Below are positions 295 to 23,010 of a DNA stretch of 64,000 nt, piece by piece. The notes beneath the pieces were generated by a model. It did no database searches and was not told where the DNA came from. It saw only the letters and a list, made by a program, of their open reading frames with translations. The DNA comes from Flavobacteriales bacterium. GTDB lineage: Bacteria; Bacteroidota; Bacteroidia; Flavobacteriales_D; Sanyastnellaceae. A program made the position numbers and the translations under genes. Position 1 is the first letter of the stretch. Each line of letters starts with the position of its first letter. The stretch is taken from the NCBI GenBank assembly GCA_018402085.1, contig JAGYJM010000002.1, positions 496,001 through 560,000 of the forward strand. Direction: 5' to 3'.

Positions 295-2022
295 ATGAAT
301 CGTTCGGCCATTTTACTGTTATTCTCCTTCCTTTTCGCCGCGAAAGCGGCGGATGCACAATTCGCATCCCGCAGCGGATTCCATCCTCCCCTGGATCCAC
401 CGCTGAACCTCAGCGGAAACTTTGGTGAGTTCAGAACGAATCACTTTCATACCGGAATCGATCTGAAGACGGGCGGACGTGAAGGTTTGCCGGTGTATGC
501 CGCACAGCGCGGATTTGTCAGCCGCATCAAGATCAGTGCCTACGGCTATGGCAACGCCTTGTACATTGAGCATCCCAACGGATACACCACTGTCTACGCC
601 CACCTGCGAGATTTTAGTCCTGAAATCGAAGCCTTTCTGCATGCGGCCCAATACGAGCTGGAGTCCTGGGAGGTCGACCTCTACCCCGGCCGTGGTCAAC
701 TGCCGGTAGATAGCGCGGCGGTCGTCGCCTGGTCAGGCAATACAGGAAGCAGCGGCGGACCACACCTTCACTTCGAGATCCGTGAAACCGAATCAGAATT
801 CCCGATGAACCCGCTGCTGTGGGATTTCCCCGTAGCCGATACCCGCGCACCGCTGTTGAAAGGCATTCAGGTTGTACCACTCACTGACACTTCTGCCGTG
901 CTCGGCAGCACACGACCGCAGCTATTCGATACACGGGGCAGTTCAGGCAGCGTGAGCCTCTACCGGAATGACCCAATCGAGGTCTTCGGTACGGTGGGCA
1001 TCGGGGTGCATACCATTGACCTGTTAAACGGCAACAGCAATGTGTGTGGCATCTACCGGCTCAAACTTTTTCTTGATGAGCAGCTGATCTACGAACAGCA
1101 GATTGACTCGCTCAACTTCGCAACCAACCGTTTCATGAATGCCCACGCTGATTACGAAGCTTTGCGCAGCAATCGGAAGAGCATTCACAGAACATTCCGC
1201 CTCCCGTACAATCGCCTGCCAATTTATCGCACGGTGTTCAATGAAGGTCGCATCACCTTAACCGATGATGAGGTGCACGATGTGCGTGTGGAGGTATTCG
1301 ATGTACACGGTAACCCGTCTATGGTCACCTTTCAGTTAAAGCGCCGCGCAGCATCTGCTTCGAGCACTTCCGGAACGCTTGATCCGGCCAGCGCTTCCAT
1401 GCAACAAGAGGGAGCTCGACTCTTAAAGTTTGATCAGGTCAACACCCTGCGTACGGATAGCTGCAATGCTTATATTCCCGAAGGACGGCTCTACGACGAT
1501 TGCTACGCAGCCATTTCAAGGCACCAACATCAACAGACCGCCTACAGCGCCTATTACTCCATCGGTAACCCTTTTGAGCCACTTCACGATGCATTGATTC
1601 TCAAGATGAAAGCCAGAGAAGTCGCTGACCCATTAATAGATAAGCTCCTGATCATTAAAATTGACGAATCTCGTAAACGCGTCTATGCCCGCGGGGGACA
1701 GTACAAATTCGGTTGGGTCACCGCCCGTGTCAAAGCGTTTGGCACCTACGCACTTGAATTAGACACCGTACCACCTCTGATCAGCGAGCGTAGCTGCAAC
1801 CGACAGTCGATCTCCTTCACCATCACCGATGACCTCAGTGGCATTGAAGGCTACGAGGCCCGCATAGACGGCCGCTGGGTACGGATGTACTATGAGCCCA
1901 AGCAGGCACGCATCTGGCATGACACCAAAGATGGTGTGATTGACGAAAACAGCCGCCTCTTTGAATTGCGCGTATGGGATGAACGGGGAAATGTTTCTGC
2001 GTTCTCAACCACCTTCGACTGA
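295..2022 (+). CDS. M23 family metallopeptidase, exported
   Basis: A 575-aa exported peptidase. Residues 1-22 form a signal peptide ending ADAQ. The LytM/M23 core spans about residues 45-165, with the zinc ligands visible as HTGID (H52, D56) and HLHFE (H157, H159). Enzymes of this family cut peptide cross-links in peptidoglycan from the periplasm. The remaining 400 residues are a beta-rich tail without recognisable catalytic motifs, a common layout in Bacteroidota. The gene is divergent from the coiled-coil gene at the left edge. One copy of the 20-nt GATG hairpin (336-355) forms the signal-peptide codons for AAKAAD. The 3' end faces the tandem array. Confidence 0.88.
   Translation: MNRSAILLLFSFLFAAKAADAQFASRSGFHPPLDPPLNLSGNFGEFRTNHFHTGIDLKTGGREGLPVYAAQRGFVSRIKISAYGYGNALYIEHPNGYTTVYAHLRDFSPEIEAFLHAAQYELESWEVDLYPGRGQLPVDSAAVVAWSGNTGSSGGPHLHFEIRETESEFPMNPLLWDFPVADTRAPLLKGIQVVPLTDTSAVLGSTRPQLFDTRGSSGSVSLYRNDPIEVFGTVGIGVHTIDLLNGNSNVCGIYRLKLFLDEQLIYEQQIDSLNFATNRFMNAHADYEALRSNRKSIHRTFRLPYNRLPIYRTVFNEGRITLTDDEVHDVRVEVFDVHGNPSMVTFQLKRRAASASSTSGTLDPASASMQQEGARLLKFDQVNTLRTDSCNAYIPEGRLYDDCYAAISRHQHQQTAYSAYYSIGNPFEPLHDALILKMKAREVADPLIDKLLIIKIDESRKRVYARGGQYKFGWVTARVKAFGTYALELDTVPPLISERSCNRQSISFTITDDLSGIEGYEARIDGRWVRMYYEPKQARIWHDTKDGVIDENSRLFELRVWDERGNVSAFSTTFD
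336..355 (+). repeat. GATG hairpin (CGCCGC-GAAA-GCGGCG-GATG)
   Basis: Perfect 6-4-6 hairpin plus GATG, inside the signal-peptide codons of the M23 gene, sense orientation, encoding A-A-K-A-A-D. Confidence 0.8.
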
Positions 2023-2029
2023 AGGTTCC

Positions 2030-3073
2030 CTGACCCAGTTCCCCGATCCTCGGACGCGATCCGCGGACGCGATAAATCGCGTCCCTACAGAACCCCCGCG
2101 TTATGCATCCGCAGCGCAACGATGCGCTGCTCACCAGGCGCCCGACCCCTGACACCCGACCCCCGCCATCGGCGATCCGCGATCCACGATCCGCGGACGC
2201 GATAAATCGCGTCCCTACAGAACCCCGCGTTATGCATCCGCAGCGCAACGATGCGCTGCTCACCAGGCGCCCGACCCCTGACACCCGACCCCCGCCATCG
2301 GCGATCCGCGATCCGCGATCCGCGGACGCGATAAATCGCGTCCCTACAGAACCCCCGCGTTATGCATCCGCAGCGCAACGATGCGCTGCTCACCAGGCGC
2401 CCGACCCCTGACACCCGACCCCCGCCATCGGCGATCCGCGATCCACGATCCGCGGACGCGATAAATCGCGTCCCTACAGAACCCCCGCGTTATGCATCCG
2501 CAGCGCAACGATGCGCTGCTCACCAGGCGCCTGACCCCTGACCCCCGCCATCGGCGATCCGCGATCCGCGGACGCGATAAATCGCGTCCCTACAGAACCC
2601 CCGCGTTATGCATCCGCAGCGCAACGCTGCGCTGCTCACCAGGCGCCCGACCCCTGACCCCCGCCATCGGCGATCCGCGATCCGCGATCCACGATCCGCG
2701 GACGCGATAAATCGCGTCCCTACAGAACCCCCGCGTTATGCATCCGCAGCGCAACGATGCGCTGCTCACCAGGCGCCCGACCCCTGACACCCGACCCCCG
2801 CCATCGGCGATCCGCGATCCGCGATCCGCGGACGCGATAAATCGCGTCCCTACAGAACCCCCGTGTTATGCATCCGCAGCGCAACGATGCGCTGCTCACC
2901 AGGCGCCCGACCCCTTACACCCGACCCCTGACATCGGCGATCCGCGATCCGCGGACGCGATAAATCGCGTCCCTACAGAACCCCCGCGTTATGCATCCGC
3001 AGCGCAACGCTGCGCTGCTCACCAGGCGCCCGACCCCTGACCCCCGCCATCGGCGATCCGCGATCCGCGATCA
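2030..3073. repeat. Tandem array, eight composite units of 116-130 bp
   Basis: Eight near-identical units start at 2065, 2195, 2324, 2454, 2570, 2700, 2830 and 2953 (start of the first palindrome in each). Each unit carries a perfect palindrome, GGACGCGAT-AA-ATCGCGTCC, then CTAC; read on the minus strand this is GTAG followed by the palindrome, the layout of REP sequences. About 40 bp later comes a second hairpin, GCAGCGCA/TGCGCTGC, flanked by CATCC (GGATG on the minus strand). Each unit ends in short repeats of GATCCGC. Units differ by point changes and by deletions within the CCCGACCCCTGACA part. There are no unique spacers, so it is not a CRISPR array. It fills the whole gap between two convergent genes. 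Confidence 0.95.
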
Positions 3074-5620
3074 ATTCTCAATAAACCGCTCACTCCGTTT
3101 AAAATCCATGTAATCGATGAAGTAGAGCAAACGCACGGAGATGCTGTTGCTCTGGGCGGCATCGAAGACACGCTCGAGGTTGTCGTCAAATCGGTCAGGG
3201 ACGATCATGGTGTCATCAATGATCTGGTTCTTCCAGACAATGCGCAACTCAGATCCGGGCGAAAAGACCCAGGTGTAAATCATATCGATATTGAACGCGT
3301 TGTAGCTGCGGTCTCTGGTGGTGCCATTCTCGATAAAGCCATCCGGCGCTTCTGCGCCGCTATCCCATAACTCAAGACCTGTACCAACCGATCCATCTCG
3401 CTGAAGCGCACCAAAGTCTTGATATTCAACCGTACTCCAGTAGTGGCGAAGGCGAAAACTCAATCCCATCCGGTTCGTGAAGATGTAATTAGCCGTGAAC
3501 ACATTGGTGTGCGCAATCACGTCGCGCTCGCCAAAAATGATGCTGCCGTTATCGGCGATATCTGTAAAGCCGTATTCATTGTAAGTATTCATGCGGCTGT
3601 ACACATAGATGAGCATAAGCTTGTCGTTCACCCTGAACCTCGGACTCACTCGCCAGTCGAATGAGTGCCAGTTGGTTCCCGGAACCATGGTGTTCCAGTT
3701 TCCGATATCGATAGCAAGGCGGCGCCGGTAATCGGTAGAGACCCATCCGCCCACCATGTAGTTTTCCGGACGCTGAAAGAACCAGCCATCCACGCGGGGT
3801 TCAAAAAAGTCGCGCTCTCCATCGGGTTGATAGGTAAACTCAAAGTTAAAAGTATCCCAGCTACGGGTGTTGACCCGGACAAAGCCATCAAAGGTGGCTC
3901 CGGTATACGTATTCGGCTGATACAGGTGCTCATAGAACACACCGAGGTTCGAACGCAGCGAGTTGAACGGACCAAAGGGGGTGAAGATGCTGTAGCTCAT
4001 CCACGCGCCGGTTTGCGAGAAATTGTTGGCAGTGAGAAAGCCCAGGTCATTGTGATCGTAGTGCTTGGTCATCACATTGTGCTGTGCACCAAAGTTGAAT
4101 TGGCCGTTGATTTTCTCCAGTGCCAGGTTGTAACGAAAGCCATCGTCTTCTTCGGGTTGATCATAGCCGAATTTCTTGCTGTATGCGCCGCCGCCGGCAA
4201 GCCGAATGCTGTTTTTCTTGCTCCTGACATCAAACTCGGTACCGGTGACATTGGCATCATACGTGTTGCCACTGCGTGTTACGTTGGTATTGATCAATGT
4301 GAAATACGAGTTGTTGCCGAGGTTCTGGTCTGCAACCAGCACGCTGTAATTGGTCAGCGGCTGCGTCTGCACCCGGCGTTCATTGCCTTCGCTGTCGCGC
4401 AATACGGCATCGGTCGAATTGGTTATAGCATTGAATACCCCGATACCAAGACCGTTGGCATTTCGTCCGCTGATTTTACTCGCATTGATCAGTGGGGTCT
4501 CAGTCGGGCTCGAGATGATTTCTTCATCGGCACGCTGCTGCGTGAACGCCCGGCTGTAGTTCACCGGACGTCCGCCGATGCGCCGTGAGTAAAATAGTCC
4601 GCCTTTATTGAATAGTTCGGTACCCTCCGTGAAGAACTGCCGCTGTTCTTCAAAGAAAACCTCGAAAGGGGTAAGGTTCAGCACCTGGTTGTCGCTGCGC
4701 ACCTGTCCGAAATCCGGAATGAGCGCCATATCGAGTGTGAAGGCATCGTTGATTCCGTATTTGAGATCCATACCTCCCACGATGGGTGTAGTGACCTGCA
4801 CCTCGCCGGCATTGTCGCGGTAGATGTCTGCGTACGCAATGGCATAGGGGTAAAGGAAGAGCCGCACCGGCGGCTTGATCCCCCTGATATTGCGCAGGAT
4901 ACCGCTTTGGTTGACTTCTCCTGGTACTTCGGGATCTACTTCCTGCCAGTAACTCAGCTCGCGGTGGCGCCGGATGCTGCGAAAGAAGTTCATATCCCAG
5001 ACCTGTTCGGGTTTTTCCGGGAAACGCAGGGCGCTGAAGGGTATCTTGAATTCTGCAATCCAGCCTTCGTCGGTGATGGCCGTGTTGCACTGCCAGACGG
5101 CATTCCAGGCAAAGTCTTCACCCAGCGCTGATAGTTGCGCGTCGGCCTGTATACCGGAGGGGGTCACAGTGAATTGAAAAGCATTGATGCCGTCTCTGAA
5201 GCACGAGAACCAGACGCCAAAGAAGTCGGTATTGCCCAGTTCATCGCGCACTGTGAGCTGACTGAGCACAGAGTCTGGCGCACTGTCGCGCATGAAAGCC
5301 CCAATGTATAGCGCGTCATTGTCATAAAGTACACGCACTTCTGAAGGCTGCGAAGGAGCACGTCCGGGCATCGGATTGTTCTGCACGAAGTCACTTGCGG
5401 TTTCAGCCTGTTGCCATGCCGCTTCGGTTAATAATCCGTCTACTTTGATGCGCTCTTCTGTGAAGCTTGCGTTAAGTTCTTTGACGAATGCAGGTACGTT
5501 TGACTGCGCAAAAGCGCAGGATGCTAACCAAGTGCTGACCACCGTCAATACTCCTGTTGTAGTGGCCTTCCATCGTTGCGACCACCCCATCCGGCACCTG
5601 CTGGGAATATTCCTTCTCAT
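3071..5620 (-). CDS. DUF5916 outer-membrane protein with CBM9-like N-terminus
   Basis: About 849 aa. The N-terminal region after the signal peptide reads as a CBM9-type domain (IKVDGLLTEAAWQQ, then VRVLYDNDALYIGAFM), followed by the long aromatic-rich beta-barrel region typical of DUF5916 proteins. The role of the family is unknown; an outer-membrane location is inferred. I chose the start at 5620 because a TACCTTTG -7 box lies at 5681-5688 and a signal peptide ending CAFAQ follows; an ATG at 5590 is an alternative. Two GATG hairpins fall in the gene: one in the signal peptide (5504-5523) and one that encodes GAEAPD in a loop near the C-terminus (3340-3359). The stop codon lies in the last bases of the tandem array. 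Confidence 0.82.
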   Translation of the reverse strand: MRRNIPSRCRMGWSQRWKATTTGVLTVVSTWLASCAFAQSNVPAFVKELNASFTEERIKVDGLLTEAAWQQAETASDFVQNNPMPGRAPSQPSEVRVLYDNDALYIGAFMRDSAPDSVLSQLTVRDELGNTDFFGVWFSCFRDGINAFQFTVTPSGIQADAQLSALGEDFAWNAVWQCNTAITDEGWIAEFKIPFSALRFPEKPEQVWDMNFFRSIRRHRELSYWQEVDPEVPGEVNQSGILRNIRGIKPPVRLFLYPYAIAYADIYRDNAGEVQVTTPIVGGMDLKYGINDAFTLDMALIPDFGQVRSDNQVLNLTPFEVFFEEQRQFFTEGTELFNKGGLFYSRRIGGRPVNYSRAFTQQRADEEIISSPTETPLINASKISGRNANGLGIGVFNAITNSTDAVLRDSEGNERRVQTQPLTNYSVLVADQNLGNNSYFTLINTNVTRSGNTYDANVTGTEFDVRSKKNSIRLAGGGAYSKKFGYDQPEEDDGFRYNLALEKINGQFNFGAQHNVMTKHYDHNDLGFLTANNFSQTGAWMSYSIFTPFGPFNSLRSNLGVFYEHLYQPNTYTGATFDGFVRVNTRSWDTFNFEFTYQPDGERDFFEPRVDGWFFQRPENYMVGGWVSTDYRRRLAIDIGNWNTMVPGTNWHSFDWRVSPRFRVNDKLMLIYVYSRMNTYNEYGFTDIADNGSIIFGERDVIAHTNVFTANYIFTNRMGLSFRLRHYWSTVEYQDFGALQRDGSVGTGLELWDSGAEAPDGFIENGTTRDRSYNAFNIDMIYTWVFSPGSELRIVWKNQIIDDTMIVPDRFDDNLERVFDAAQSNSISVRLLYFIDYMDFKRSERFIEN
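3340..3359 (-). repeat. GATG hairpin (CGGCGC-AGAA-GCGCCG-GATG)
   Basis: Perfect copy in sense orientation inside the DUF5916 gene. It encodes GAEAPD in a polar loop (LWDSGAEAPDGFIENG). Confidence 0.9.
5504..5523 (+). repeat. GATG hairpin (CTGCGC-AAAA-GCGCAG-GATG)
   Basis: Perfect copy, antisense to the DUF5916 gene, overlapping the signal-peptide cleavage region (SCAFAQS). Confidence 0.8.
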
Positions 5621-11427: not shown

Positions 11428-11726
11428 TCGGAAGGAGACTGACGCGCTCCTCCGCTGCCTTGTTCAGATGGGCTGCCGCATTCTTCAGGTCGCTTTCGAA
11501 GATTACATACCTCCATGCATCAGCATGTAATAACAGCTTAACTCGTTCGCAGCCGAGAAACCTCCGGAAGCCCGGAGAAAGATATCACTCATTTGGCTTT
11601 TTTATTATCCAAAGCCGGAATCACAGTTTGTCTACCGATCATCAGACTTCAGTGCCGCTTAACATTTTTTGAACATCGGCCGGGATTTGTCCGTTTGAAA
11701 GAAGCTACATTTAGCGATTGGGTGAT
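11428..11726. other. Intergenic region before the exporter operon
   Basis: No gene seen. It holds a 6-4-6 hairpin at 11562-11577 (CTCCGG-AAGC-CCGGAG) without a T-run and without GATG, and a weak promoter-like TACATTTAG at 11706-11714 just upstream of the exporter operon. Confidence 0.5.
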
Positions 11727-12422
11727 ATGATAGAGCTGAAGCAAATTCGAAAGTCGTACAAGGTAGGCAGCGGTCAACTGGAAGTGCTCAAAGGCATTGA
11801 TCTGAAGATCGATAAAGGCGAACTGGTATCCATTATGGGGTCTTCCGGTTCCGGTAAGTCCACCTTGCTCAACATACTCGGGCTCCTCGATAGCTTCGAT
11901 CAGGGAAGCTACCACATAGACGGTATGTCGATGGCAGGATTGAGCGAGACTCAAGCCGCACGCTATAGAAGTCGTTACCTCGGGTTTGTGTTTCAGAGTT
12001 TCAATCTGATCAATTTCAAAAATGCCGTCGAGAACGTAGCATTGCCGCTGTATTACCAGAAGGTGCCTCGTAAAGAACGCAACGCAAAAGCGTTGGAATA
12101 TCTTGACCAGGTCGGGCTTGCTGATTGGGCGACCCACCTGCCAACGGAGATGTCAGGCGGACAAAAACAGCGGGTGGCGATTGCACGTGCCCTGATCACC
12201 GAGCCACGTCTTATCCTTGCAGATGAACCTACCGGTGCGCTCGATTCTAAAACGAGCGACGAAGTCATGAATGTGCTTCAGAAAGTCAATGATACCGGAA
12301 TGACGGTCATTATTGTTACACATGAAAACGAAGTGGCGGCGCGCACTCAAAGGGTAATCAGGCTTCGCGACGGGCTGATTGAGTCTACCGGACGTGAAGC
12401 AGAAGTCACTAAAAGAGTCTGA
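11727..12422 (+). CDS. MacB-type ABC transporter ATP-binding protein
   Basis: 231 aa, soluble nucleotide-binding subunit of a MacB/LolD-type mechanotransmission ABC system. Walker A is GSSGSGKST, the signature is MSGGQKQR, Walker B is [12 protein letters not shown] and the H-loop is IIVTHE, so it should be active. The start at 11727 (MIELKQIRK) is preferred; an in-frame TTG lies 9 nt upstream. It is the first gene of a four-gene operon with two FtsX-type permeases and a periplasmic adaptor. Such systems move substrates from the periplasm or inner membrane outward; the substrate here is unknown. Confidence 0.92.
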
Positions 12423-12424
12423 GT

Positions 12425-13651
12425 ATGTTCGATAAGGATAAGTGGCTCGAAATATTTCATACCATCCTGAAGAATCCGCTTCGAACGATTCTTACAGGTA
12501 CCAGTGTGGCGCTCGGGCTCTTTATTCTTGTAGTGATGCAAGGTCTGGGCTTCGGACTCCAGAAAGGGGTGTTTGAAACCATTGAAGATGACGCCATCAA
12601 TTCGATCTGGGTACGAAGTGGTCGAACCAGTATCGGTTACAAAGGACTGACGCCCAATCGCAGCATCGATTACCAGAACCGCGACCTCGAATGGACCGTC
12701 GATAATCAGGAAGACGCTCCAGCCTTCACCGGAAGGGTAGGCTTCTGGAGTGCCCAAATGGTATATGGAAGCGAGTCGATGAGTTTTGGCATTCGTGGTG
12801 TTCACCCGGGTCACCAGGTGCTTGAGCGCACCACCCTGGTGGCAGGGCGCTATATTAATGAAGGAGACATGCTCGATGACCGAAAAGTAGCCGTGCTTGG
12901 TCAAACAATTGTAGATGACCTCTTCAAAGGAAAAAGTCCTGTGGGAGAATACCTGTCGATCATGGGGGTGCAGTTCAGAGTCGTTGGTTTCTACGATGAC
13001 AAAAACAGCCGCTGGGAGAACAGACTGGCGATCGTGCCCATATCATCGGCACAGAAACTCTTTGGTAAACGCGATGAACTCGATATGTTCATGATCTCTA
13101 CCGGAACGGCGAGCCTCGAAGAAACCCAGGAGATGGCACAAGAAATTGAAGCTCATCTGAAAAACGTACACCGTGTGCATCCGGAAGATAACAGGGCAAT
13201 CCGAATCCGGAACAACAACGAAGAGTTCAAGCAGTTTATGGATGTATTTTTCGGCATCCGTCTCTTCATTTGGGCCATCGGGTCGTTCACCCTCCTCGCA
13301 GGGGTCATCGGCGTAGCGAATATCATGTCAATTGTCGTCAAGGAACGCACCAAAGAGATTGGCATCCGAAAGGCACTTGGCGCCACTCCTATGACCATCC
13401 TCAGCCTGATCATTCAGGAGGCCGTGTTTCTTACCTTCGTTGCAGGGTGCCTCGGATTGCTGGCAGGGGTGCTCACGCTCGAGTATTCTGCAGGAATGAT
13501 CGAACACGAGTTTTTCAAAGATCCCGAAGTTGATTTTAAAGTTTGCCTTATCGCGATGATCATATTGACTGTCGCCGGGGCCTTGTCAGGTCTGATTCCT
13601 GCGCTTCGCGCAGTGAGTATTCGCCCCGTAGAAGCACTAAGAGATGAATAA
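12425..13651 (+). CDS. MacB/FtsX-type ABC permease 1
   Basis: 408 aa. TM1 is at about 19-42, followed by a MacB periplasmic core domain of about 220 residues, then three C-terminal TM helices of the FtsX domain, with the conserved VKERTKEIGIRKALGATP coupling segment. It begins 2 nt after the ATPase gene and ends 2 nt before a second, similar permease. The N-termini of the two (MFDKDKWLEIFHTILKNP and MFDRDRWLEILQVVLRNP) show a tandem duplication. A heterodimeric permease is inferred, instead of the MacB homodimer with a fused ATPase. Confidence 0.9.
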   Translation: MFDKDKWLEIFHTILKNPLRTILTGTSVALGLFILVVMQGLGFGLQKGVFETIEDDAINSIWVRSGRTSIGYKGLTPNRSIDYQNRDLEWTVDNQEDAPAFTGRVGFWSAQMVYGSESMSFGIRGVHPGHQVLERTTLVAGRYINEGDMLDDRKVAVLGQTIVDDLFKGKSPVGEYLSIMGVQFRVVGFYDDKNSRWENRLAIVPISSAQKLFGKRDELDMFMISTGTASLEETQEMAQEIEAHLKNVHRVHPEDNRAIRIRNNNEEFKQFMDVFFGIRLFIWAIGSFTLLAGVIGVANIMSIVVKERTKEIGIRKALGATPMTILSLIIQEAVFLTFVAGCLGLLAGVLTLEYSAGMIEHEFFKDPEVDFKVCLIAMIILTVAGALSGLIPALRAVSIRPVEALRDE

Positions 13652-13653
13652 GA

Positions 13654-14913
13654 ATGTTTGATCGCGATCGCTGGCTTGAAATATTACAAGTAGTACTCCG
13701 GAATCCTGTGCGTGCAGTGCTTTCAGGCCTCGGCGTGAGCTGGGGAATTTTCATGCTCATCATTACCATCGGTTCTACCAACGGACTTCAGAACGGTATC
13801 AAAGCCGATATGAGCAACCGCGCCGAAAACAGTATGTTTCTCTGGACCATGCGCACCAGTATGGCACACAAAGGATACAAGAAAGGACGAAGGTTCGAGC
13901 TGGATAACAGCGATGTCAGGTACCTGAAGCAAAATGTGACCACCATTGAAACCGTGTCACCTCGTATTCAATTAGGCGGTTACAGAGGTTCCAATAATGT
14001 AGTTCGCGGCGTCAATACCGGCGCTTTCAATATTTATGGAGATACTCCTGCGTACATCAATATTGAACCGATTGATTTATACAACGGTCGCTACCTTAAT
14101 CAGGCTGACCTCGATAAAGAGCGGAAGATTTGCGTGATTGGCCAGAGATGCTACGAAGTACTCTTTCCTGATGGCGAAGATGCGGTTGGTGAATACATCC
14201 GTATCAATGGTGTGAGTTTCATGGTGGTGGGCGTTTATAAGTCGTATCGCACCGGGGAAGATGCAGAAGAATCAACCCAAAGTATTTTCGTGCCACTCAC
14301 CACCTTCCAGAAAGCATTTCATTACGGAGACGAAATTGGATGGCTCTCTATTCTCATCAAAGATGGAATGAATGCAGATGTGGCCTCAAATGAAGTCGTC
14401 TCTGTGCTCAAAGAACGCAAAAGCGTTCACCCGGATGACCCGCGCGCATTCGGACACTGGTCAATGGCCGAAGAAATCGAAGAAATGGATCAGATTTTTA
14501 CCGGCTTTGATTATGTTTCTGTTGTTTTTGGCGGACTTGTACTGCTTGCAGGGGTGATTGGTATAGTGAACATCATGTTGATCACTGTGAAAGAGCGAAC
14601 AAAGGAGATCGGTATTCGACGTGGTATCGGGGCAACCCCAATGGCTGTGATCGGTCAGATCGTGGCTGAAACCGTTTTTCTCACCGTGACGGCCGGATTT
14701 GCAGGCATGATCATTGGCGTGGGAGCGCTTGAAGCTGTCAGCGCACTGCTCGCATCTTCCGGAGACGCAGGGTCGTTCCGAAATCCCGAAATCGATGCTC
14801 TATCGGTTCTGCTGATTCTGTTGATTATGATTATTATGGGGGCCTTCGCCGGATTATTGCCTGCTTCGCGCGCCGTATCTATAAAACCTGTTGATGCCCT
14901 GAGGGCCGAATAA
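13654..14913 (+). CDS. MacB/FtsX-type ABC permease 2
   Basis: 419 aa paralogue of the permease just upstream, with the same layout: N-terminal TM, MacB-like periplasmic domain and a three-helix FtsX domain (VKERTKEIGIRRGIGATP). It differs most in the periplasmic region, as expected if the two form a heterodimer with unequal contacts to the adaptor. The stop is 10 nt before the adaptor gene. Confidence 0.9.
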   Translation: MFDRDRWLEILQVVLRNPVRAVLSGLGVSWGIFMLIITIGSTNGLQNGIKADMSNRAENSMFLWTMRTSMAHKGYKKGRRFELDNSDVRYLKQNVTTIETVSPRIQLGGYRGSNNVVRGVNTGAFNIYGDTPAYINIEPIDLYNGRYLNQADLDKERKICVIGQRCYEVLFPDGEDAVGEYIRINGVSFMVVGVYKSYRTGEDAEESTQSIFVPLTTFQKAFHYGDEIGWLSILIKDGMNADVASNEVVSVLKERKSVHPDDPRAFGHWSMAEEIEEMDQIFTGFDYVSVVFGGLVLLAGVIGIVNIMLITVKERTKEIGIRRGIGATPMAVIGQIVAETVFLTVTAGFAGMIIGVGALEAVSALLASSGDAGSFRNPEIDALSVLLILLIMIIMGAFAGLLPASRAVSIKPVDALRAE

Positions 14914-14923
14914 TTTTGAAACT

Positions 14924-16036
14924 ATGAATAAAGGCTGTTTATATGCCCTGATCATCTTTGTGGTGCTCGTTCTGGCCGGTGCGGGAGCAACGCTCTATTA
15001 CTTGAAAGCCAAAGAAAACCAAGGGCCACAGAAGTTTGAAACTGAACAACCGGAGGTTCGCAATGTGGTGCTTAAAACCGTCGCAAATGGCAGTGTGCAA
15101 CCCCGCCAGGAGGTAGAGATCAAACCACAGATTAGCGGAATCATTTCTGAGATTTTCGTAGAAGCCGGTGACATAATAGATGAAGATCAACTCATCGCAC
15201 AAGTAAAGGTAGTGCCCAATATGGTCAGCCTCAGCAACGCTGAAAACCGAATGGAACGCGCTAAAATTGCCCTTGATAATGCAACGATGGATTACGATCG
15301 CAACAAACAACTGCTCGATAAAGGTGTGATCGCTCCCGCTGAGTTTCAACAGTTCGAAATCGCCCGACGACAGTCTCTTGAAGAACTGAATGCTGCAGAA
15401 GACAACCTGTTGATCGTTAAAGAGGGCGTCGCACGCCGGTCTGGTGGCAGCACCCTTACTAAGATTCGCTCAACGGTTTCCGGAATGGTGCTCGATGTGC
15501 CCGTAAAAAAAGGAAACTCGGTTATTGAAGCCAATAATTTCAATGACGGTACCACGATCGCATCCGTAGCTGATATGAATGACCTCATTTTTGAAGGAAA
15601 ACTAGATGAATCTGAAGTAGAAAAGCTCAGCCAGGGCATGGATCTCATCCTGACCATTGGTGCCATCGAAGGCAAAAACTTTAATGCCGAACTTGAGTAC
15701 ATCTCACCCAAAGGTGTGGAAGAAAATGGAGCGATCCAATTCCAGATTCGCGCTGCAGTCAAACTGAAAGAAGATGAGTTTATTCGCGCAGGCTATAGCG
15801 CAAATGCGGATGTCGTACTCGATAGACGAGATTCTGTGCTGACCATTAGCGAAAGTGTGGTGCAGTACAACCAACAACAAAAACCCTTCATTGAGGTCGA
15901 AATTGGCGAGAATCAGTACGAAAAACGCGACGTTGAACTGGGGCTTTCTGATGGCCTCTTTGTTGAAGTGCTCAGTGGAGTTGGCAAAGAAGATAAGATC
16001 AAACAATGGAACCGACCGACAAGAGAACGACCATGA
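14924..16036 (+). CDS. MacA/HlyD-type periplasmic adaptor
   Basis: 370 aa. A single N-terminal membrane anchor (about 5-27) is followed by a lipoyl half-domain (VQPRQEVEIKPQISGIISEI), a coiled-coil hairpin (about 100-165), the second lipoyl half (KIRSTVSGMVLDVPVKKG) and a beta-barrel domain. This is the MacA-like membrane-fusion subunit that would link the two permeases to an outer-membrane channel. No TolC gene is in this operon; the nearest, at 16922-18334, is on the other strand with a different transporter. Confidence 0.9.
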   Translation: MNKGCLYALIIFVVLVLAGAGATLYYLKAKENQGPQKFETEQPEVRNVVLKTVANGSVQPRQEVEIKPQISGIISEIFVEAGDIIDEDQLIAQVKVVPNMVSLSNAENRMERAKIALDNATMDYDRNKQLLDKGVIAPAEFQQFEIARRQSLEELNAAEDNLLIVKEGVARRSGGSTLTKIRSTVSGMVLDVPVKKGNSVIEANNFNDGTTIASVADMNDLIFEGKLDESEVEKLSQGMDLILTIGAIEGKNFNAELEYISPKGVEENGAIQFQIRAAVKLKEDEFIRAGYSANADVVLDRRDSVLTISESVVQYNQQQKPFIEVEIGENQYEKRDVELGLSDGLFVEVLSGVGKEDKIKQWNRPTRERP

Positions 16037-16048
16037 CCCGGGTTTTCC

Positions 16049-16056
16049 TACTTTTG
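16049..16056 (+). promoter_or_regulatory. -7 box TACTTTTG, leaderless-type promoter
   Basis: Exact TAnnTTTG match ending 5 nt before the ATG at 16062. The start of transcription would fall at or within a base or two of the start codon. Confidence 0.55.
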
Positions 16057-16061
16057 CCGCT

Positions 16062-16823
16062 ATGGCTTTGATAGAAGAAATGGAGCGCTCCGGAAACTGG
16101 TTGTTTCGCTGGAGAAGCTTTTTACCCCTGATCCTGTATGTGCTTGCACTGGTCGTTATGATCGGAGGCTGGGATCGCCACATGAACCACGCTGAATTAG
16201 GCTGGATCATCACTTGCCTCGTCGTGAGCTTTTTCGGACTGCTCATTAGGGCGCTGACCATCGGCTTCACCCCAAAAGGAACCTCAGGAAGAAATACGTC
16301 AGAAGGACAAGTCGCTGAAAGCCTCAATACTCGAGGGGTCTACTCATTGGTGCGCCACCCGCTTTATCTCGGTAATTTCTTTATGTGGCTCGGCATCATT
16401 ATGTATACGGGCAACTGGTGGTTTACAAGCGTTTGCACCCTCCTCTTCTGGGTCTACTATGAGCGCATCATGTTCGCCGAAGAAGCGTTTCTCAGAAAGA
16501 AATTCGGGGGCGACTATCTGCGCTGGTCAAAAGATACCCCGGCGTTTTTCCCAAATTTCAAGTCTTATCGAAACGCCGGTATTCCGTTCTCTTTTAAAAA
16601 TGTGCTGAAGCGCGAATACAATGGCTTCTTCGCCGTTTTCGTCAGTTTCACATTTATCAACGCGGTCAAAAACTACCTCGATTATCAGGTCTTCGAACTC
16701 GATTTCATCCTTGACCGCTTCTGGCAATATGCACTCCCCGTAGCTTTTATCATTTTCATTACCCTCCGCACTTTGAAGAAGCGCACCAATGTGCTTGATG
16801 TGGAAGGTCGTGAGTATGTATGA
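16062..16823 (+). CDS. Integral-membrane methyltransferase (isoprenylcysteine/phospholipid MT type)
   Basis: 253 aa with about five to six membrane helices. The C-terminal half has the ICMT/PEMT-type SAM-binding signature: YSLVRHPLYLGNFFMWLG, then YYERIMFAEEAFLRKKFG. Relatives methylate lipids or lipid A phosphate, or prenylcysteine; the substrate cannot be told here. A start at 16062 is supported by its own TACTTTTG -7 box 5 nt upstream, so it may be transcribed apart from the exporter operon that ends 25 nt earlier. Confidence 0.8.
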   Translation: MALIEEMERSGNWLFRWRSFLPLILYVLALVVMIGGWDRHMNHAELGWIITCLVVSFFGLLIRALTIGFTPKGTSGRNTSEGQVAESLNTRGVYSLVRHPLYLGNFFMWLGIIMYTGNWWFTSVCTLLFWVYYERIMFAEEAFLRKKFGGDYLRWSKDTPAFFPNFKSYRNAGIPFSFKNVLKREYNGFFAVFVSFTFINAVKNYLDYQVFELDFILDRFWQYALPVAFIIFITLRTLKKRTNVLDVEGREYV

Positions 16824-16921: not shown

Positions 16922-18334
16922 CTAGAATAAGAGTTCATCAGGACTAAAAGTCAACATGTACAACTTCCACTTCAGAATGCGCAGTTTGCGACGCACATCG
17001 ATGAGTTTCAGCTCTGCATCAAGGTAACTGCTTTCGCGGCGGTTGACCAGAAAGAGCGTGCTCTCGCCGAAAAGAAGTCTGCGATTTTCAAGATATAGCA
17101 GGCGTGAACTGTTATCGGCAGCCTGCTGGGCAATGTCAAGCATCTCGGTGGTCACCGCGAGCTGTTGCTCAAATTGATCGAACTTCTGAAGCAGCTCGCG
17201 CTCCTTTAAGCTTATCTTCAGTCCTACTTGCGCCTGTTTAATTTTCGCTTTATCAATCTTGGCCCGTTCTTTCCGACTGAGTATCGGAATTTTCGCAGAG
17301 ATTCCTAGCACTGCAGAATTGGTTGAAATATTAACGGTTTGAGGTATGGTAATCGCTTTTGCGCTGAGGTCTATGTCAGGCTTGATTTGTTCTCGAGCCA
17401 ATCGCAGATCCAGCTCAGCAACATCAAGGTCGAGGTCGAGGGCCTCAAGCGCCGGGTGAAGTAGCGGACTTCTGTTTTCATTGTTCAGCTGCATCAACCT
17501 GCTGTCTGGCACAGATTGCCAGGTTGAATCAGGTATAACCGTTCCTGAACGAAAAGAAGGAAAGAGCTGGTCTTCCCAAACCATTGTTCCTACGAGCTGG
17601 TACCACTCTTGATAGTTGTTTACCGCATTCAAGCGCTGCGTCTCCCGCTTCACATATGTGTTATACGCTTCAAGTGTATCCATGGCGGTTGCAAGGCCTT
17701 CTTCGTAGCGTCGCACCGTTTGTTCATAGCGCACATACGAAAGATCGCTGATTCGATCCAGCAGAATCACGGTTTCGTTACTGGCCGTCCAGTTCCAGTA
17801 AACCTCTGATGCGAAAACGATAAAGTCGCGTTGAAAGGCCTCAAGATCGCGGAGTGAGCGTTGACTCAATAATCGGGTTTGTTGCAGCCTGGTCTGATCA
17901 GGAGTTCGGAAGAGGCCATCACCAATCGGAACTCGCAACTCCGCAAATGCGAGCCCGTCAGCAGGGGTGTTGAGTTCCGGATTGATGAAGTCACCGCGGT
18001 TACGTTCGCCACCAATCTTAAGGTTCACTCCTGGCGGAAGTTGCCACTCAACCGAAGTTTGCTGATAATCGTAGTAGGGCTTGCCTTCGAATTCTTTCGA
18101 AGCATAATCGCTCTTCCATATAGGATCAAAAGCTGCACGCGCAATCTGAACCTCGGCCTCTGCACCTGCTACATTGAGCTGTTGTGTGCGCATCGCCGGG
18201 TGGTAAAGCAGCACCTGACGAAGGAAAGCACCTTCGCTCAACAGCAAAGAGTCAGGATTCTGAGCGTGAAGCAAAGACGCACACAGCAAGAATGCCAACA
18301 TTAGCACCGGGAAGTGAATCCTACTTTTTCTCAC
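16922..18334 (-). CDS. TolC-family outer-membrane efflux protein
   Basis: About 470 aa with a GTG start at 18334 (signal peptide ending LLHAQ). The mature part has the two OEP repeats of long coiled helices (AEAEVQIARAAFDPIW; KIKQAQVGLKISLKEREL) that form the periplasmic tunnel, plus beta strands for the outer-membrane barrel. An alternative ATG at 18301 gives a shorter signal sequence. The start overlaps the end of the upstream HlyD gene by 14 nt, so it is the last gene of a three-gene transporter unit. Confidence 0.88.
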   Translation of the reverse strand: MRKSRIHFPVLMLAFLLCASLLHAQNPDSLLLSEGAFLRQVLLYHPAMRTQQLNVAGAEAEVQIARAAFDPIWKSDYASKEFEGKPYYDYQQTSVEWQLPPGVNLKIGGERNRGDFINPELNTPADGLAFAELRVPIGDGLFRTPDQTRLQQTRLLSQRSLRDLEAFQRDFIVFASEVYWNWTASNETVILLDRISDLSYVRYEQTVRRYEEGLATAMDTLEAYNTYVKRETQRLNAVNNYQEWYQLVGTMVWEDQLFPSFRSGTVIPDSTWQSVPDSRLMQLNNENRSPLLHPALEALDLDLDVAELDLRLAREQIKPDIDLSAKAITIPQTVNISTNSAVLGISAKIPILSRKERAKIDKAKIKQAQVGLKISLKERELLQKFDQFEQQLAVTTEMLDIAQQAADNSSRLLYLENRRLLFGESTLFLVNRRESSYLDAELKLIDVRRKLRILKWKLYMLTFSPDELLF

Positions 18335-19685
18335 CCTTATCGCCTTTTGCTTGCTGAGGTGTGTAGAATTCCGGCGGGAATCCATTCAATTGTCGCCACA
18401 GCTCGTAACCGAGCGGTACATTCTGAAGCATAATCATTCCGAAGGCACCTGAACCGATGCTCAGCGGACGTGGCCAGTGGCCGTCACCTTCTGTAGAGTC
18501 TGGCACTACGATCACTCGGTACTTACCTCTATCATTGATGACCTGATCAACACTTACTACCTGGCCTGCAAAGGTGCCCACAGATGCACTGGGCCAACCA
18601 CTAAAGACGAGAGCGGGCCAGCCGTCAAACTGAAGGCGCACATGCGCACCCCTGTGCATGAGTGGCACATCCATAGCTTCTACATAGAGCTCACAGGCCT
18701 CCACAAAGTCAAGTGGTTGAATGGTGGCGATGGCAGTGCCTGATTTGACAATCTCCCCAACTCCACTCGAAAGCGTCTGAATCACACGGCCACCTTGCGG
18801 AGCCAACACTGTTTGACCGGTTTGCCGGCGTTCATAGTTCGCGAGGGTATTTTCGAGTTTTGTTTTTTCGGCAATGGCATCCTGGATGTTCGCTGCGGTG
18901 GTCGCCTGATCACTGCTGTTCTTGGCGATTTTATCAGCAAACTCGGCAGCTTTACGGTTTACCTCAATCACGGCCATTTCGAATGATTGACCGCTCGATG
19001 CAAGGTCGTTGTTGGCTTTCACTAGTTTGGCATCTGCTTCCTGACGCTTGAGGCTGCGGCTCTCAAAGTCGGTCGTAGTTAATAGACCGTCACCATAGTA
19101 AAGTTCTTCTGCGCGCTCTAAACGCTGTTGTGCGATTTTCACATCAAGCTCAGCCTGGGCAACGCCAGCGCTGTCAGCTGATACTTTTTGGCGTGACTGG
19201 CGAATTTTCAGACGGGCCTGGGCGAGCTCAAAATCACGACTTTGTATGAGCGCCTCCTCCTGTTGTTGAAGGGCGATAAGTTTATCGCGGTAGGCCTGAA
19301 TTGACAAACTCTTCGCCTCTATCAGCGTCTTGGTTCGCGATACAAGCTGTGGATCCAGATACTCCGGCTTGACCTCTTCTAGCTGAAGAAGGGTGTCGCC
19401 GACCTCGATCACCTGGCCTTCATAAACATGCCATTTGGCTATGCGGCCATCGATCATGATGTTCACCTGTTGAGGCTTTTTGTCAGGAAAACGGCTGATA
19501 ACCATACCGTCGGCAGACACGTTCTGCGTCCAGGGTAGCAGAAGAATGCCGATCAAAACGATGATTCCGATAAAAAAGTTGCGAATGAGCTTACGTCCGC
19601 GTTGCTCCGGACGTAGTCGAATCATCGAGTTGGAAGCGTTTGAACGCTCTTCAAAGTTTTTAGGAAACGGACTAATGTTAAGCAT
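18321..19685 (-). CDS. HlyD-family membrane-fusion protein
   Basis: 454 aa. A TM helix at about 35-55 is followed by a lipoyl half (PQQVNIMIDGRIAKWHVYEG), a very long coiled-coil hairpin (about 100-290) and the second lipoyl half (TVLAPQGGRVIQTLSSGVG), then a beta-barrel domain. This is the adaptor of a type I-like system between the ABC protein upstream and TolC downstream. The ATG at 19685 overlaps the ABC gene by 8 nt, so translation is probably coupled. Confidence 0.9.
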   Translation of the reverse strand: MLNISPFPKNFEERSNASNSMIRLRPEQRGRKLIRNFFIGIIVLIGILLLPWTQNVSADGMVISRFPDKKPQQVNIMIDGRIAKWHVYEGQVIEVGDTLLQLEEVKPEYLDPQLVSRTKTLIEAKSLSIQAYRDKLIALQQQEEALIQSRDFELAQARLKIRQSRQKVSADSAGVAQAELDVKIAQQRLERAEELYYGDGLLTTTDFESRSLKRQEADAKLVKANNDLASSGQSFEMAVIEVNRKAAEFADKIAKNSSDQATTAANIQDAIAEKTKLENTLANYERRQTGQTVLAPQGGRVIQTLSSGVGEIVKSGTAIATIQPLDFVEACELYVEAMDVPLMHRGAHVRLQFDGWPALVFSGWPSASVGTFAGQVVSVDQVINDRGKYRVIVVPDSTEGDGHWPRPLSIGSGAFGMIMLQNVPLGYELWRQLNGFPPEFYTPQQAKGDKGEKK

Positions 19686-21387
19686 CGCCGTCAAGTTTAG
19701 GGTCACCTAATTCACTCGCTTCACAGGCTTTCAGGTGTTCTGCGTCATAGCGGTAGTAGCGATCAAAGAAGCGGGTTTCTGGGCGGCTTTCACTAAAGAA
19801 TATCACCGACCATGAATGGAATGGATCCAGTAAGTATTCGAGCATCTGCTTGTACCGTATAGGATCAGATGGAAGTTGCTCGGCATCGATCAATAGAAGA
19901 TCGGGTTCGTCAACAACATTACGGGCGAGTAAAATACCTTTCACAATTACGGGTGACACAAGGTTACTAAAGGGCTGAACCTTTGTGTTTTCTGCTTCAG
20001 GCAACAACCTGATTTCTTTAAGTAGACCAATGTTCTCGAGCACTTGCTCAATTTCATCGTTCGTGATTTCTTTACGCCCCAGACGAACGTTATCAAGCAA
20101 GGTGCCACTGAAAAGCTCATCACGTCCCCATAATTCTCCCAGCTTGGTGCGGTAGTGGGAGCGGTTCAGTGATTTTACCGAACGCCCGCGAAAGGTAACA
20201 TGACCCCGGTAGTCATCTTTTCGTCCGGTTACCAATTGCACCATGGTTCGCACAAAGAAGGGATGAGCGTACTGAATGAATACACGCTCCCCCTCATTGA
20301 CCTCGAAATGCCCAACGGAAATAGGAGCCTGGTAGGTGTCTGCTTCTGTACGAAGCCCATCCATCTCAAACAACGTGGCGTCTTTATTGTAGTTCTCAAG
20401 CTCTCCATCTTCTTCAAGATTGAGGTCAGTCACTGACCCGATCTTTTCAAGTGCCGTGAGTACGTCATAAACAGTCTCCAGGTTGAGAATGATCTTTTCC
20501 ACTGAGCTGGTAATCAATAGAATGACGATCTCTGCAGCGACGAACTGTCCGATGCCAATCTGATTCTCAATCACCAGGATACTACCCAGTACCAATAGAC
20601 CGGCGGCGATGAGTAGTTTGAAAATCAGAAGGGCGATGTAGTGACCCACCAGCACCTTGAAGTGCTCTCTTCGGGCACTCACATAGTTTTCTGTGAGTGC
20701 ATCTGTAGTCTCTACCGCCATGTCAGATTTAGGAGTCATCCTGAATGACTCGAGGTTGACGGCGACTTCTTCCAGCCAGCGAACTACCGAATACTTCCAG
20801 GTAGACTCACGAATACTGGTCTCCAGGCCGCGCCCCATCGCCATCCGGATAAGCAATATTACAAGCGCAATGATGAGTATATCGAAAAGGATAAAGAATG
20901 GGTGGTACAAGGCCAGTAGAATCAAACCGAAAATGACCTGAAGCACTGCGGTAGAAAAATCGATGATCAGTTTGCTCACTCCTTTCTGTACCGAGAGCAC
21001 ATCAAAGAAACGGTTCATTAACTCTGCAGGGTTGCGCTTGTCTAGCTCTGCAAACATCAACTTGGGAAGTCTCATCGCAAATTCAAGCGATGCCTTGGCG
21101 AAAATCCGCTGCTGAAAATACTCCACTAGCCACTGTTGGCGAATCTGAAGCCAACCGCTCAGAAAGATGCCCATCAATACGAATGAGACCAACACGATCC
21201 AGGATGTGCTGATGCGACCAACCTGAATGAAGTTGATGATTGCCTGAATACCCAATGGAAGCGACAAACCAATCAATCCACCAAATGCCGCAATGAGCAA
21301 CACGCGACCCAGAAGTTGGCGCTCAGCTGTAAGCAGTCTGACCAATCGTTGCCAGGGAGTATATAGTCGTGTTCCGGTTTGGCCCAT
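19678..21387 (-). CDS. ABC transporter protein with a degenerate ATPase domain
   Basis: 569 aa. The N-terminal 300 residues are a type I exporter membrane domain with about six TM helices. The C-terminal part follows the NBD pattern but has lost its motifs. The Walker A place reads NEGERVFIQYAHPFFVRTM with no GxxGxGKS; the signature place reads PFSNLVSPVIVKGILLARN instead of LSGGQ; Walker B is LLLIDAEQ with the catalytic Glu replaced; the H-loop is FFSESRP with no His. The fold-level match (LFSGTLLDNVRLG) is still clear. ATP hydrolysis by this chain is unlikely. It is first in the unit with HlyD and TolC genes. Confidence 0.88.
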   Translation of the reverse strand: MGQTGTRLYTPWQRLVRLLTAERQLLGRVLLIAAFGGLIGLSLPLGIQAIINFIQVGRISTSWIVLVSFVLMGIFLSGWLQIRQQWLVEYFQQRIFAKASLEFAMRLPKLMFAELDKRNPAELMNRFFDVLSVQKGVSKLIIDFSTAVLQVIFGLILLALYHPFFILFDILIIALVILLIRMAMGRGLETSIRESTWKYSVVRWLEEVAVNLESFRMTPKSDMAVETTDALTENYVSARREHFKVLVGHYIALLIFKLLIAAGLLVLGSILVIENQIGIGQFVAAEIVILLITSSVEKIILNLETVYDVLTALEKIGSVTDLNLEEDGELENYNKDATLFEMDGLRTEADTYQAPISVGHFEVNEGERVFIQYAHPFFVRTMVQLVTGRKDDYRGHVTFRGRSVKSLNRSHYRTKLGELWGRDELFSGTLLDNVRLGRKEITNDEIEQVLENIGLLKEIRLLPEAENTKVQPFSNLVSPVIVKGILLARNVVDEPDLLLIDAEQLPSDPIRYKQMLEYLLDPFHSWSVIFFSESRPETRFFDRYYRYDAEHLKACEASELGDPKLDGDA

Positions 21388-22275: not shown

Positions 22276-23010
22276 TCAGTTCATTACGAGCATCGCCGCT
22301 GCCATTGCTACCATACCGGTATCTTCAATGATAGTTACAGTGCTCATTGGAAGGTTAAACACAGTTCCGAGACATGCGCACCGAATTTCACGCTTATGGA
22401 GCACACTTCTGATCACGCCAATACTGCTGAAGCCCATCACAATGATGGTGGCGGCATTTACATAGGTCGGGTACATGCCTGAGGTATAGGCCAAACCGAG
22501 TACCAGTTCAATAAACGGATACATAAAGGCGTAAGGCAGCCACACGGAAGCAAGCAGATCGTACCCAGAATAGGCACTGGCAAATCCCCGAAGATCGAGC
22601 AATTTGAAAAAGGAAAAAGACAGAAAAAATCCGGCCATGAAGGTGCGCATACCGAGATAAAATCCGTTTTCTTCGCCAATGGCAACGGTCACTGATACCA
22701 GCAACAAAAGTCCCACCAGGATCAACAAGGGCTTGTATTGCTCCCAGAAGCTTTTCGCATCGTCTTGAACCGCATCGAGTGAAGCGGATGCGGCTTCGTG
22801 TTTGTTTGTGATCAACTTGTAGCTTCCGGCTGCAGCTACTGCTTTCTCCAGCAAACCCTCATCAACCACGCGGTTCATTTCTATGGTGGCCTCTGGTGGG
22901 GTCAGTGAGACCTCGGCAGCGCTTACTCCGTCAACTTGTTCTAAGGCTTTTTTGACAGATTTAACGCAACCGCCACAAGTCATTCCTTTAATGGTGTATG
23001 TATGTTTCAT
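22276..23010 (-). CDS. HMA domain fused to a MauE/DoxX-like membrane protein
   Basis: 244 aa. Residues 1-65 are a heavy-metal-associated domain with the metal-binding motif GMTCGGC. After a short linker come four TM helices of the MauE/DoxX type (about 90-240), with a CAC motif near the end (REIRCACLGTVFNLP) that could be redox active or metal binding. Copper or another soft metal is the likely ligand, by analogy with HMA domains. A role in metal handling or in periplasmic redox work is inferred. It is co-transcribed with the SDR gene. Confidence 0.82.
   Translation of the reverse strand: MKHTYTIKGMTCGGCVKSVKKALEQVDGVSAAEVSLTPPEATIEMNRVVDEGLLEKAVAAAGSYKLITNKHEAASASLDAVQDDAKSFWEQYKPLLILVGLLLLVSVTVAIGEENGFYLGMRTFMAGFFLSFSFFKLLDLRGFASAYSGYDLLASVWLPYAFMYPFIELVLGLAYTSGMYPTYVNAATIIVMGFSSIGVIRSVLHKREIRCACLGTVFNLPMSTVTIIEDTGMVAMAAAMLVMN

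Follow-up and report, generated by a model that had tools for sequence, protein, structure and literature searches.

The operon in the window

We analysed a stretch of 64,000 nucleotides from a Flavobacteriales bacterium (GenBank assembly GCA_018402085.1, contig JAGYJM010000002.1, positions 496,001 to 560,000), hereafter the window, within which all positions are counted. On its minus strand lies a gene whose product combines the transmembrane domain (TMD) of an ATP-binding cassette (ABC) exporter with a degenerate nucleotide-binding domain (NBD). We refer to it as the pseudo-ABC gene; genes for an HlyD-family adaptor and a TolC-family outer membrane factor follow it. The features are listed below with the evidence for each; rows are the aligned family sequences.

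19678..21387, minus strand: pseudo-ABC exporter gene, 569 amino acids (ABC-exporter membrane domain and degenerate NBD-like domain; open reading frame (ORF), Pfam ABC_membrane, AlphaFold2 model, structural match to HlyB)
20413..21387, minus strand: TMD, residues 1-325, six long helices, the sixth (TM6) at residues 279-320; it bears K135, K139, S195, K198, E286, E297, K298 and K315 (DSSP of the model; conservation over 220 rows)
19753..20412, minus strand: NBD-like domain, residues 326-545, without an intact catalytic motif and under purifying selection (alignments; ratio of nonsynonymous to synonymous substitution rates, dN/dS)
20242..20277, minus strand: former Walker A motif, residues 371-382, IQYAHPFFVRTM, with V379 at the Lys position (alignment)
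20125..20127, minus strand: former Q-loop Gln position, G421 (alignment)
19945..19959, minus strand: former signature motif, residues 477-481, VSPVI in place of LSGGQ (alignment)
19882..19887, minus strand: end of Walker B, D501 retained, A502 at the catalytic Glu position (alignment)
19789..19791, minus strand: former H-loop His position, E533 (alignment)
18321..19706, minus strand: HlyD-family adaptor with a PWTQN motif, likely start near 19685 (Pfam HlyD_3; family alignment; adjoins or is fused with the pseudo-ABC gene in nearly all rows)
16922..18385, minus strand: TolC-family outer membrane factor (Pfam OEP, 3.5e-33; profile match)

The pseudo-ABC ORF begins with ATG and runs without an internal stop, and the three genes are ordered pseudo-ABC, HlyD, TolC on one strand with overlapping ORFs. 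This agrees with a preliminary description of the DNA, which reported a gene intact over 569 codons and coupled to HlyD and TolC genes. Because HlyD homologues begin with MLNIS, we placed the true HlyD start near 19685, which would leave an 8-base overlap with the pseudo-ABC gene. Both a co-encoded HlyD-type adaptor and TolC, the hallmarks used here for a tripartite system, are found at the locus.

In the Pfam search, the window protein matched ABC_membrane with 30.6 bits (cut-off 28), and its NBD scored 20.9 bits, under the cut-off of 25. The AlphaFold2 model (mean predicted local distance difference test score 88.5, predicted template modelling score 0.81; 46 aligned sequences) corresponds to the complete type IV exporter fold, a six-helix membrane domain followed by an NBD fold. 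Its top structural match was HlyB in the HlyB/HlyD complex 8dck (Z 27.1 over 556 residues, root-mean-square deviation 3.0, 14% identity), with nine other type IV exporter entries at most 1 Z unit away.

Motif positions were assigned by alignment with canonical exporters from the same genome and from relatives. The Walker A pattern GxxxxGK[ST] is replaced by IQYAHPFFVRTM and is lost in all five rows of the window clade; the LSGGQ signature, the catalytic Glu and the H-loop His have likewise given way to VSPVI, A502 and E533. Judged on sequence only, the protein does not qualify as an ATP-hydrolysing inner-membrane unit. The statement that all catalytic motifs are lost therefore needs one correction: Walker A, the Q-loop Gln, the signature, Glu and His are replaced, but the Walker B Asp (D501) is kept.

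Four relatives with 65-68% identity to the window protein (L007-L010) have identical replacements. The loss is thus consistent among close homologues, the comparison that the preliminary description had proposed, and a recent mutation limited to the window gene is ruled out. In what was once the nucleotide pocket, these relatives also conserve residues peculiar to them, for example WGRD and DAEQLPSDP. In the one well-measured pair, G001 against G002, dN/dS stood at 0.007 in the TMD and at 0.029 in the NBD-like domain. For the NBD-like domain of the window gene against G001 and G002 it was 0.298 and 0.196, at dS values of 1.4 and 2.0 that are near saturation; every other comparison was saturated. 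Because dN/dS is low, yet above the TMD value, the degenerate domain is maintained by selection, less strictly than the membrane domain. A sign that might point to a decaying pseudogene came from one lower-quality genome (G026, locus L240), in which the pseudo-ABC and TolC genes are each split into two overlapping frames, reflecting either an assembly error or decay. Set against this are the intact window ORF, the dN/dS of 0.029 in the NBD-like part of the best-measured pair and the recurrence of the architecture across many genera. As the preliminary description had maintained, decay is hardly credible, and we discarded it on dN/dS.

Spread, architectures and partners of the family

Relatives of the window protein were detected in 197 of 395 genomes of the class (profile search, E up to 1e-60) and in 97 of 395 genomes of a phylum sample that partly overlaps the class sample (E up to 1e-55). 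A scan of named genomes gave at least 594 candidate stretches, 551 of them encoding relatives. The 80 named loci used here are the best 80 of at least 551 relative-encoding stretches by match to the window, a choice biased to NBD-bearing forms; where their titles name an organism, it belongs to the Bacteroidota (Flavobacterium, Polaribacter, Tenacibaculum, Pontibacter, Lewinella and others). A few genomes are present twice under different locus identifiers.

Four architectures were found: TMD-NBD, N-terminally extended TMD-NBD, TMD alone and a TMD-HlyD fusion. The TMD-NBD form comprises about 555 amino acids. The extended form adds about 130-185 or more N-terminal residues (L076, L088, L098, L124, L117), and is longer still in a second group from other classes; the extension had no Pfam match, and a C39 peptidase or other known domain was dropped as a candidate for it. 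Seven genes encode the TMD alone (332-339 amino acids) and abut the HlyD gene, with anything from an 8-base overlap to a 66-base gap. An eighth candidate, L126 (G283), was TMD-only by profile match and was lost in ORF calling; it is not among the seven. Eight rows are TMD-HlyD fusions in one frame of 742-781 amino acids, joined by L040, which is cut by a contig end, and by G435 at 741 amino acids. At TMD-only and fusion loci, neither the gene nor any stretch separating it from HlyD contains a remnant of the NBD.

Motif states were counted in 186 NBD-bearing rows of the main group and in 15 rows of the second group. We left out duplicates (L005, L006), fragments (L026, L045, L046, L048, L049), rows with identical membrane domains, and L113 and the 512-residue ORF of L118, both cut by contig ends. 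Walker A states came from a pattern search around the alignment column, and alignment columns are unsure in the most degenerate rows (L036-L039, L117, L131). In the main group, Walker A was full in 156 rows, partial in 14 and lost in 16; the H-loop His was present in two (L096, L111), the Walker B Asp-Glu pair in four, and Gln at the Q-loop column in six. No main-group row had both Glu and His, and none had all five motifs. The second group retained Walker A and Asp-Glu in 15 of 15 rows, His in 12 and Gln in none, and could by its sequences still be active. The LSGG[QE] signature was absent from all 201 NBD-bearing rows of both groups (0/186 and 0/15), SGG being retained in four. A complete catalytic set occurred in none of the family rows examined. 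Loss of all motifs, as first described for the window gene, thus holds for its clade; across the family, motif loss appears to be stepwise, and most NBD-bearing relatives examined retain Walker A. Taken together, these sequences point to a real variant of wide occurrence, in which the ABC unit of an HlyD-TolC operon is left without its ATPase. Full-text searches, with most subscription journals outside their reach, found no paper on the family.

The HlyD gene adjoins the pseudo-ABC gene in 173 of 177 TMD-NBD rows (two without it, two cut off) and in 27 of 29 extended rows. For TolC, the corresponding counts are 136 of the 177 (34 undecidable, seven not found) and, again, 27 of the 29. A TetR-type gene lies upstream in 111 TMD-NBD rows (46 without, 20 undecidable) and in only four extended rows. 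These synteny counts predate the removal of L113. In many genomes (L119, L133, L160 and others) the upstream regulator belongs to a distinct and unusual TetR-type family. Searching in the other direction, we found the family's HlyD in 193 of 390 genomes, and 192 of these 193 also had an ABC-like gene at the search cut-off. One apparent case of an HlyD without an ABC-like partner, G435, turned out to be the TMD-HlyD fusion mentioned above. Five family-bearing genomes were missing from the HlyD list; a direct search of two of them gave an HlyD in G480 and none in G461. By these counts, the membrane domain and HlyD are seldom if ever separated.

Members also occur on plasmids, including some beyond the Bacteroidota. 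With the window protein as query, 12 records of a plasmid collection matched (Persicobacter, Aureibacter, Riemerella, Sphingomonadaceae); with a Novosphingobium member as query, 15 records matched, all from Novosphingobium, Sphingobium, Sphingomonas, Croceicoccus or Sphingopyxis. In the three Sphingomonadaceae proteins that were read (L249, L250, L252), Walker A, the Walker B Glu and the His are all gone, and counterparts of K135, S195, K198, E286 and D308 are retained. L249 is from pNL2 of Novosphingobium aromaticivorans DSM 12444, an environmental strain. HlyD and TolC genes then follow in L249 and L250, the L250 adaptor being annotated as a biotin/lipoyl-binding protein; L252 is unannotated, with ORFs of fitting size and order, and a further Sphingomonas plasmid record has the gene order ABC, HlyD, TolC. 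The Aureibacter member L251 has lost Walker A as well. In L250 (at 1362-3914), which comes from a Sphingobium plasmid, a DUF2309 gene immediately precedes the operon. Members on four Riemerella anatipestifer plasmids, NZ_CP081938.1 among them, align with 72% of the query at 31.7% identity and are labelled ABC transporter ATP-binding protein.

In the window clade, the stretches read contained no TetR-type gene of this kind; upstream they have gyrB and a gene for a short-chain dehydrogenase. Several other neighbours were noted in the window. Beside gyrB, at 22276-23010 on the minus strand, a 244-residue protein with a heavy-metal-associated (HMA) domain and a MauE-like membrane domain is encoded, a gene missing from the corresponding place in the five window-clade relatives read. 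Convergent to the TolC gene, the plus strand carries at 11718-16036 an ABC ATPase-like ORF, two MacB-like permease ORFs and a MacA-like adaptor, of which the permease and adaptor part also lies beside the operon in four of these five relatives (L236, L237, L239, L240). Between the MacA-like gene and TolC, at 15855-16823 on the plus strand, lies an ORF that by eye resembles a membrane methyltransferase; it is retained in four of the five.

Conservation of the membrane domain and losses of the NBD

In the main group, mean identity was 53% for the TMD and 33% for the NBD, the TMD being the more conserved in 17847 of 17955 pairs. The second group gave 49% and 41% (TMD higher in 82 of 105 pairs). 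In a control set of five canonical proteins, mostly paralogues, the relation was reversed: 24% for the TMD, 50% for the NBD, and the TMD higher in none of ten pairs. K135, S195, K198 and K315 were present in 220 of 220 rows, in all architectures, with the NBD present or absent; E286 was found in 217 of these rows, K298 in 214 and E297 in 211. Five canonical exporters had no such residue at those columns, save a conservative Arg at 315 in four. Among the membrane glutamates, E89, E286 and E297 are conserved in the family and are candidate counterparts of the glutamate ladder of SbmA.

We also compared positions that are conserved in NBD-bearing forms and lost in the fusions. Many lie in two cytoplasmic loops (P108, E122, R126 and D129 in one; W204, E207, R210 and F215 in the other), and further such positions sit outside cytoplasmic loops. 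In the TMD-HlyD fusions, the loops on which an NBD would dock have been shortened, loop 2 among them, and rewritten; the residue losses may partly reflect plain divergence of the fusions. TMD-only proteins have a largely intact loop 1, W204 in three of seven, and changes at R210 and F215. F215 of coupling loop 2 had been considered as a strong mark of NBD docking, which was weakened by the finding of Tyr at this place in Sphingomonadaceae proteins with an NBD-like domain as well.

To place the losses, trees were built from 224 membrane-domain sequences, 222 of them counted (FastTree), and from 102 of these (IQ-TREE). On both, absence of the NBD corresponds to three changes, a number that rises to eleven when loss of Walker A is counted as well. 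Forcing the 13 NBD-less rows of the IQ-TREE tree into one single clade was rejected (approximately unbiased test, p-AU 0.00014). Because canonical exporters have an NBD, the NBD-bearing state was taken as ancestral; in principle, a regain after two losses could also account for the three changes. The group with Glu and His lies outside the main group in the FastTree tree and inside the extended forms in the IQ-TREE tree, and the canonical outgroup branches are very long. Because of this disagreement and these long branches, the order of losses was drawn from motif states and not from a root, and the idea that the group with Glu and His forms the family root was abandoned. Within the family, the NBD is dispensable, with the membrane domain, HlyD and TolC staying together.

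Energy source and relation to known systems

Because the NBD is eroded family-wide and gone in three separate branches, and because the set of Lys, Glu and Ser residues is kept regardless, we propose, at a probability of roughly 0.6, that the pseudo-ABC protein forms the inner-membrane unit of an HlyD-TolC tripartite conduit which has ceased to use ATP. A non-hydrolysing membrane unit serving the adaptor was one of two options in the preliminary description, and it gains from the family-wide loss, the three separate NBD losses and the fusion to HlyD. ATP independence is probable on the same evidence; a proton drive like that of SbmA is possible by analogy. In such a system, the dimeric membrane domain would anchor the HlyD/TolC duct, and alternating access, not powered by ATP, would carry the substrate. 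Together with the Lys set, the acids conserved in TM6 (E286, E297, D308) may form a proton or anion path, and the system would be secondary-active, as are SbmA and the laboratory-made NBD-less forms of MsbA and LmrA. In the window clade, the degenerate NBD would be retained as a structural domain on the cytoplasmic side.

The literature offers relevant precedents. NBD-less MsbA transports ethidium with a pH gradient (PMC4979069), E314 in TM6 of LmrA is required for proton-coupled drug transport (PMC6155054), and SbmA is proton-driven, its proposed ancestor being an ABC exporter from which the NBD and coupling helices disappeared (PMC13316013). We hypothesise by analogy that the TM6 acids of the present family act like LmrA E314 or the SbmA acids. 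A word search of part of a review of tripartite systems (PMC8277102) for degenerate, NBD-lacking or inactive units led to four places in its text, none of them on such a system.

Several observations weigh against an ATP-free unit. Walker A is kept in most NBD-bearing members, and nucleotide binding therefore probably matters in many of them; an ATP-using form may still exist, to judge by the motifs of the second group. The TMD-only proteins largely preserve the first coupling loop, which would be needless in a purely ATP-free unit, and most TMD-HlyD fusions are without E304, E194 and H162. The three Sphingomonadaceae proteins have no counterparts of K139, E297, K298 and K315. Finally, another ABC ATPase ORF lies at most 6 kb away in seven of 160 loci with enough flank, counted by a motif pattern; in L050 it is 84 bases upstream on the same strand, and at the TMD-only locus L122 a 282-residue NBD-type ORF lies beyond TolC.

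These neighbouring ATPases bear on the question of a borrowed motor: the window protein might work with a second, active ABC subunit or with an independent ATPase, just as the degenerate half of TM287/288 or CydDC has an active half for partner. Degenerate halves of heterodimers are well known (PMC12038006, PMC9541285), a PF00664 search found four other ABC exporters in the window genome, and the coupling loop 1 retained by TMD-only proteins would also fit a partner. However, the neighbouring ATPases are few, of several kinds and unrelated-looking, two of them starting like UvrA by eye; the motif pattern, which missed the L122 ORF, found none at 12 NBD-less loci, and in the fusions erosion has affected the coupling loops. 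No match to the HlyD, TolC or TetR profiles was present in the 12 kb surrounding each of the genome's other four exporters, so the second active copy with the same neighbours for which the preliminary description had asked did not turn up there; no active partner half was found beside these exporters or in the window-clade stretches. We also searched 23 genomes with a profile of the family's NBD (19 NBD-less genomes, the window's own, two with the family NBD and one with neither). Among the matches listed, the best in the 19 NBD-less genomes reached at most 190.5 bits, mostly in whole exporters, compared with 264 and 308 bits in the two genomes with the family NBD, and an orphan copy of the family's NBD was not among them. 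Two of the matches from NBD-less genomes lay in frames of 324 and 358 amino acids, scoring 122 and 177 bits; the latter frame is close to the start of its contig. The borrowed ATPase, the other option of the preliminary description, is weakened by these results; we regard it as less likely and, overall, as rather improbable.

A static scaffold, in which the membrane domain would do no more than join HlyD to TolC as a tether or pore base and would move nothing itself, would agree with the fusion of this domain to HlyD and with the loss of the NBD, and the conserved residues could be dimer or HlyD contacts instead of a transport path. Yet such a scaffold would hardly need the four invariant Lys and Ser residues in helices, and the TetR-type regulator upstream of 111 of the 177 TMD-NBD rows hints at regulated transport, both points being indirect; we consider a scaffold unlikely. 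The full Walker A in 156 of 186 rows from which Glu and His are mostly gone could alternatively mean that the NBD of these relatives binds ATP without turnover as a regulatory switch, which in the window clade would be gone as well. This leaves the clades without Walker A or without an NBD unexplained, the window clade included, and is very improbable as a general account.

The ATP-free reading can be extended into a history, which we put forward tentatively and as doubtful in itself: an ATP-driven tripartite exporter may have been converted several times, with intermediates still alive, into a secondary-active, ion-driven one through ordered losses. In the proposed order, the signature and Q-loop went first, followed by His and Glu, by Walker A and finally by the entire NBD, which left a TMD joined in one chain to its own periplasmic adaptor. 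Arguments on whether an ABC exporter's membrane domain is able to do work once the ATPase is gone have drawn on truncated laboratory forms of MsbA and LmrA, and on SbmA. The present family seems to be a naturally occurring series of such changes within an HlyD-TolC system, found in roughly half of the class genomes sampled and on Sphingomonadaceae plasmids, where members are mostly annotated, if at all, as ordinary ABC transporters. Its fully degenerate and NBD-less proteins, with known partners, would be direct test material for ATP-free, ion-driven tripartite export. The label "ABC transporter ATP-binding protein" can mislead about the energy source.

For the window protein, the best NCBIfam profiles included those of NHLP bacteriocin exporters (TIGR03796 and TIGR03797; 81.4 and 68.6 bits), far below their cut-offs of 853.3 and 709.4, and the peptide cleavage/export ABC TIGR01193 and CydC TIGR02868 (77.1 and 80.2 bits) likewise stayed far below theirs (524 and 329). 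Heterodimeric exporters with a degenerate site (TM287/288, TmrAB, CydDC, MsRv1273c/72c) share a half with replaced catalytic residues and give similar structural matches; unlike the window protein, for which no partner gene was found, they have an active partner half. With the type I secretion exporters (HlyB/HlyD/TolC) the family has in common the fold, 8dck being the top match, and the gene order ABC-HlyD-TolC; it differs in having no complete ATPase motif set, an NBD that is sometimes absent and a TMD that is sometimes fused to HlyD.

The likeness to SLiPT proteins (SbmA/BacA) lies in an ABC-exporter membrane domain without a working NBD, in coupling-loop features lost in NBD-less forms and perhaps in the conserved membrane glutamates. 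In contrast to the present family, SbmA imports peptides, and HlyD has no occurrence in the text of the SbmA paper (PMC13316013). The window protein has no Pfam SbmA_BacA match at E up to 1 and retains an NBD-like domain, which is absent only in some relatives. By its motifs and profile matches, it would therefore be neither an ATP-driven exporter nor a SLiPT. In the present family, unlike in SLiPT, intermediates from NBD-bearing to NBD-less forms survive.

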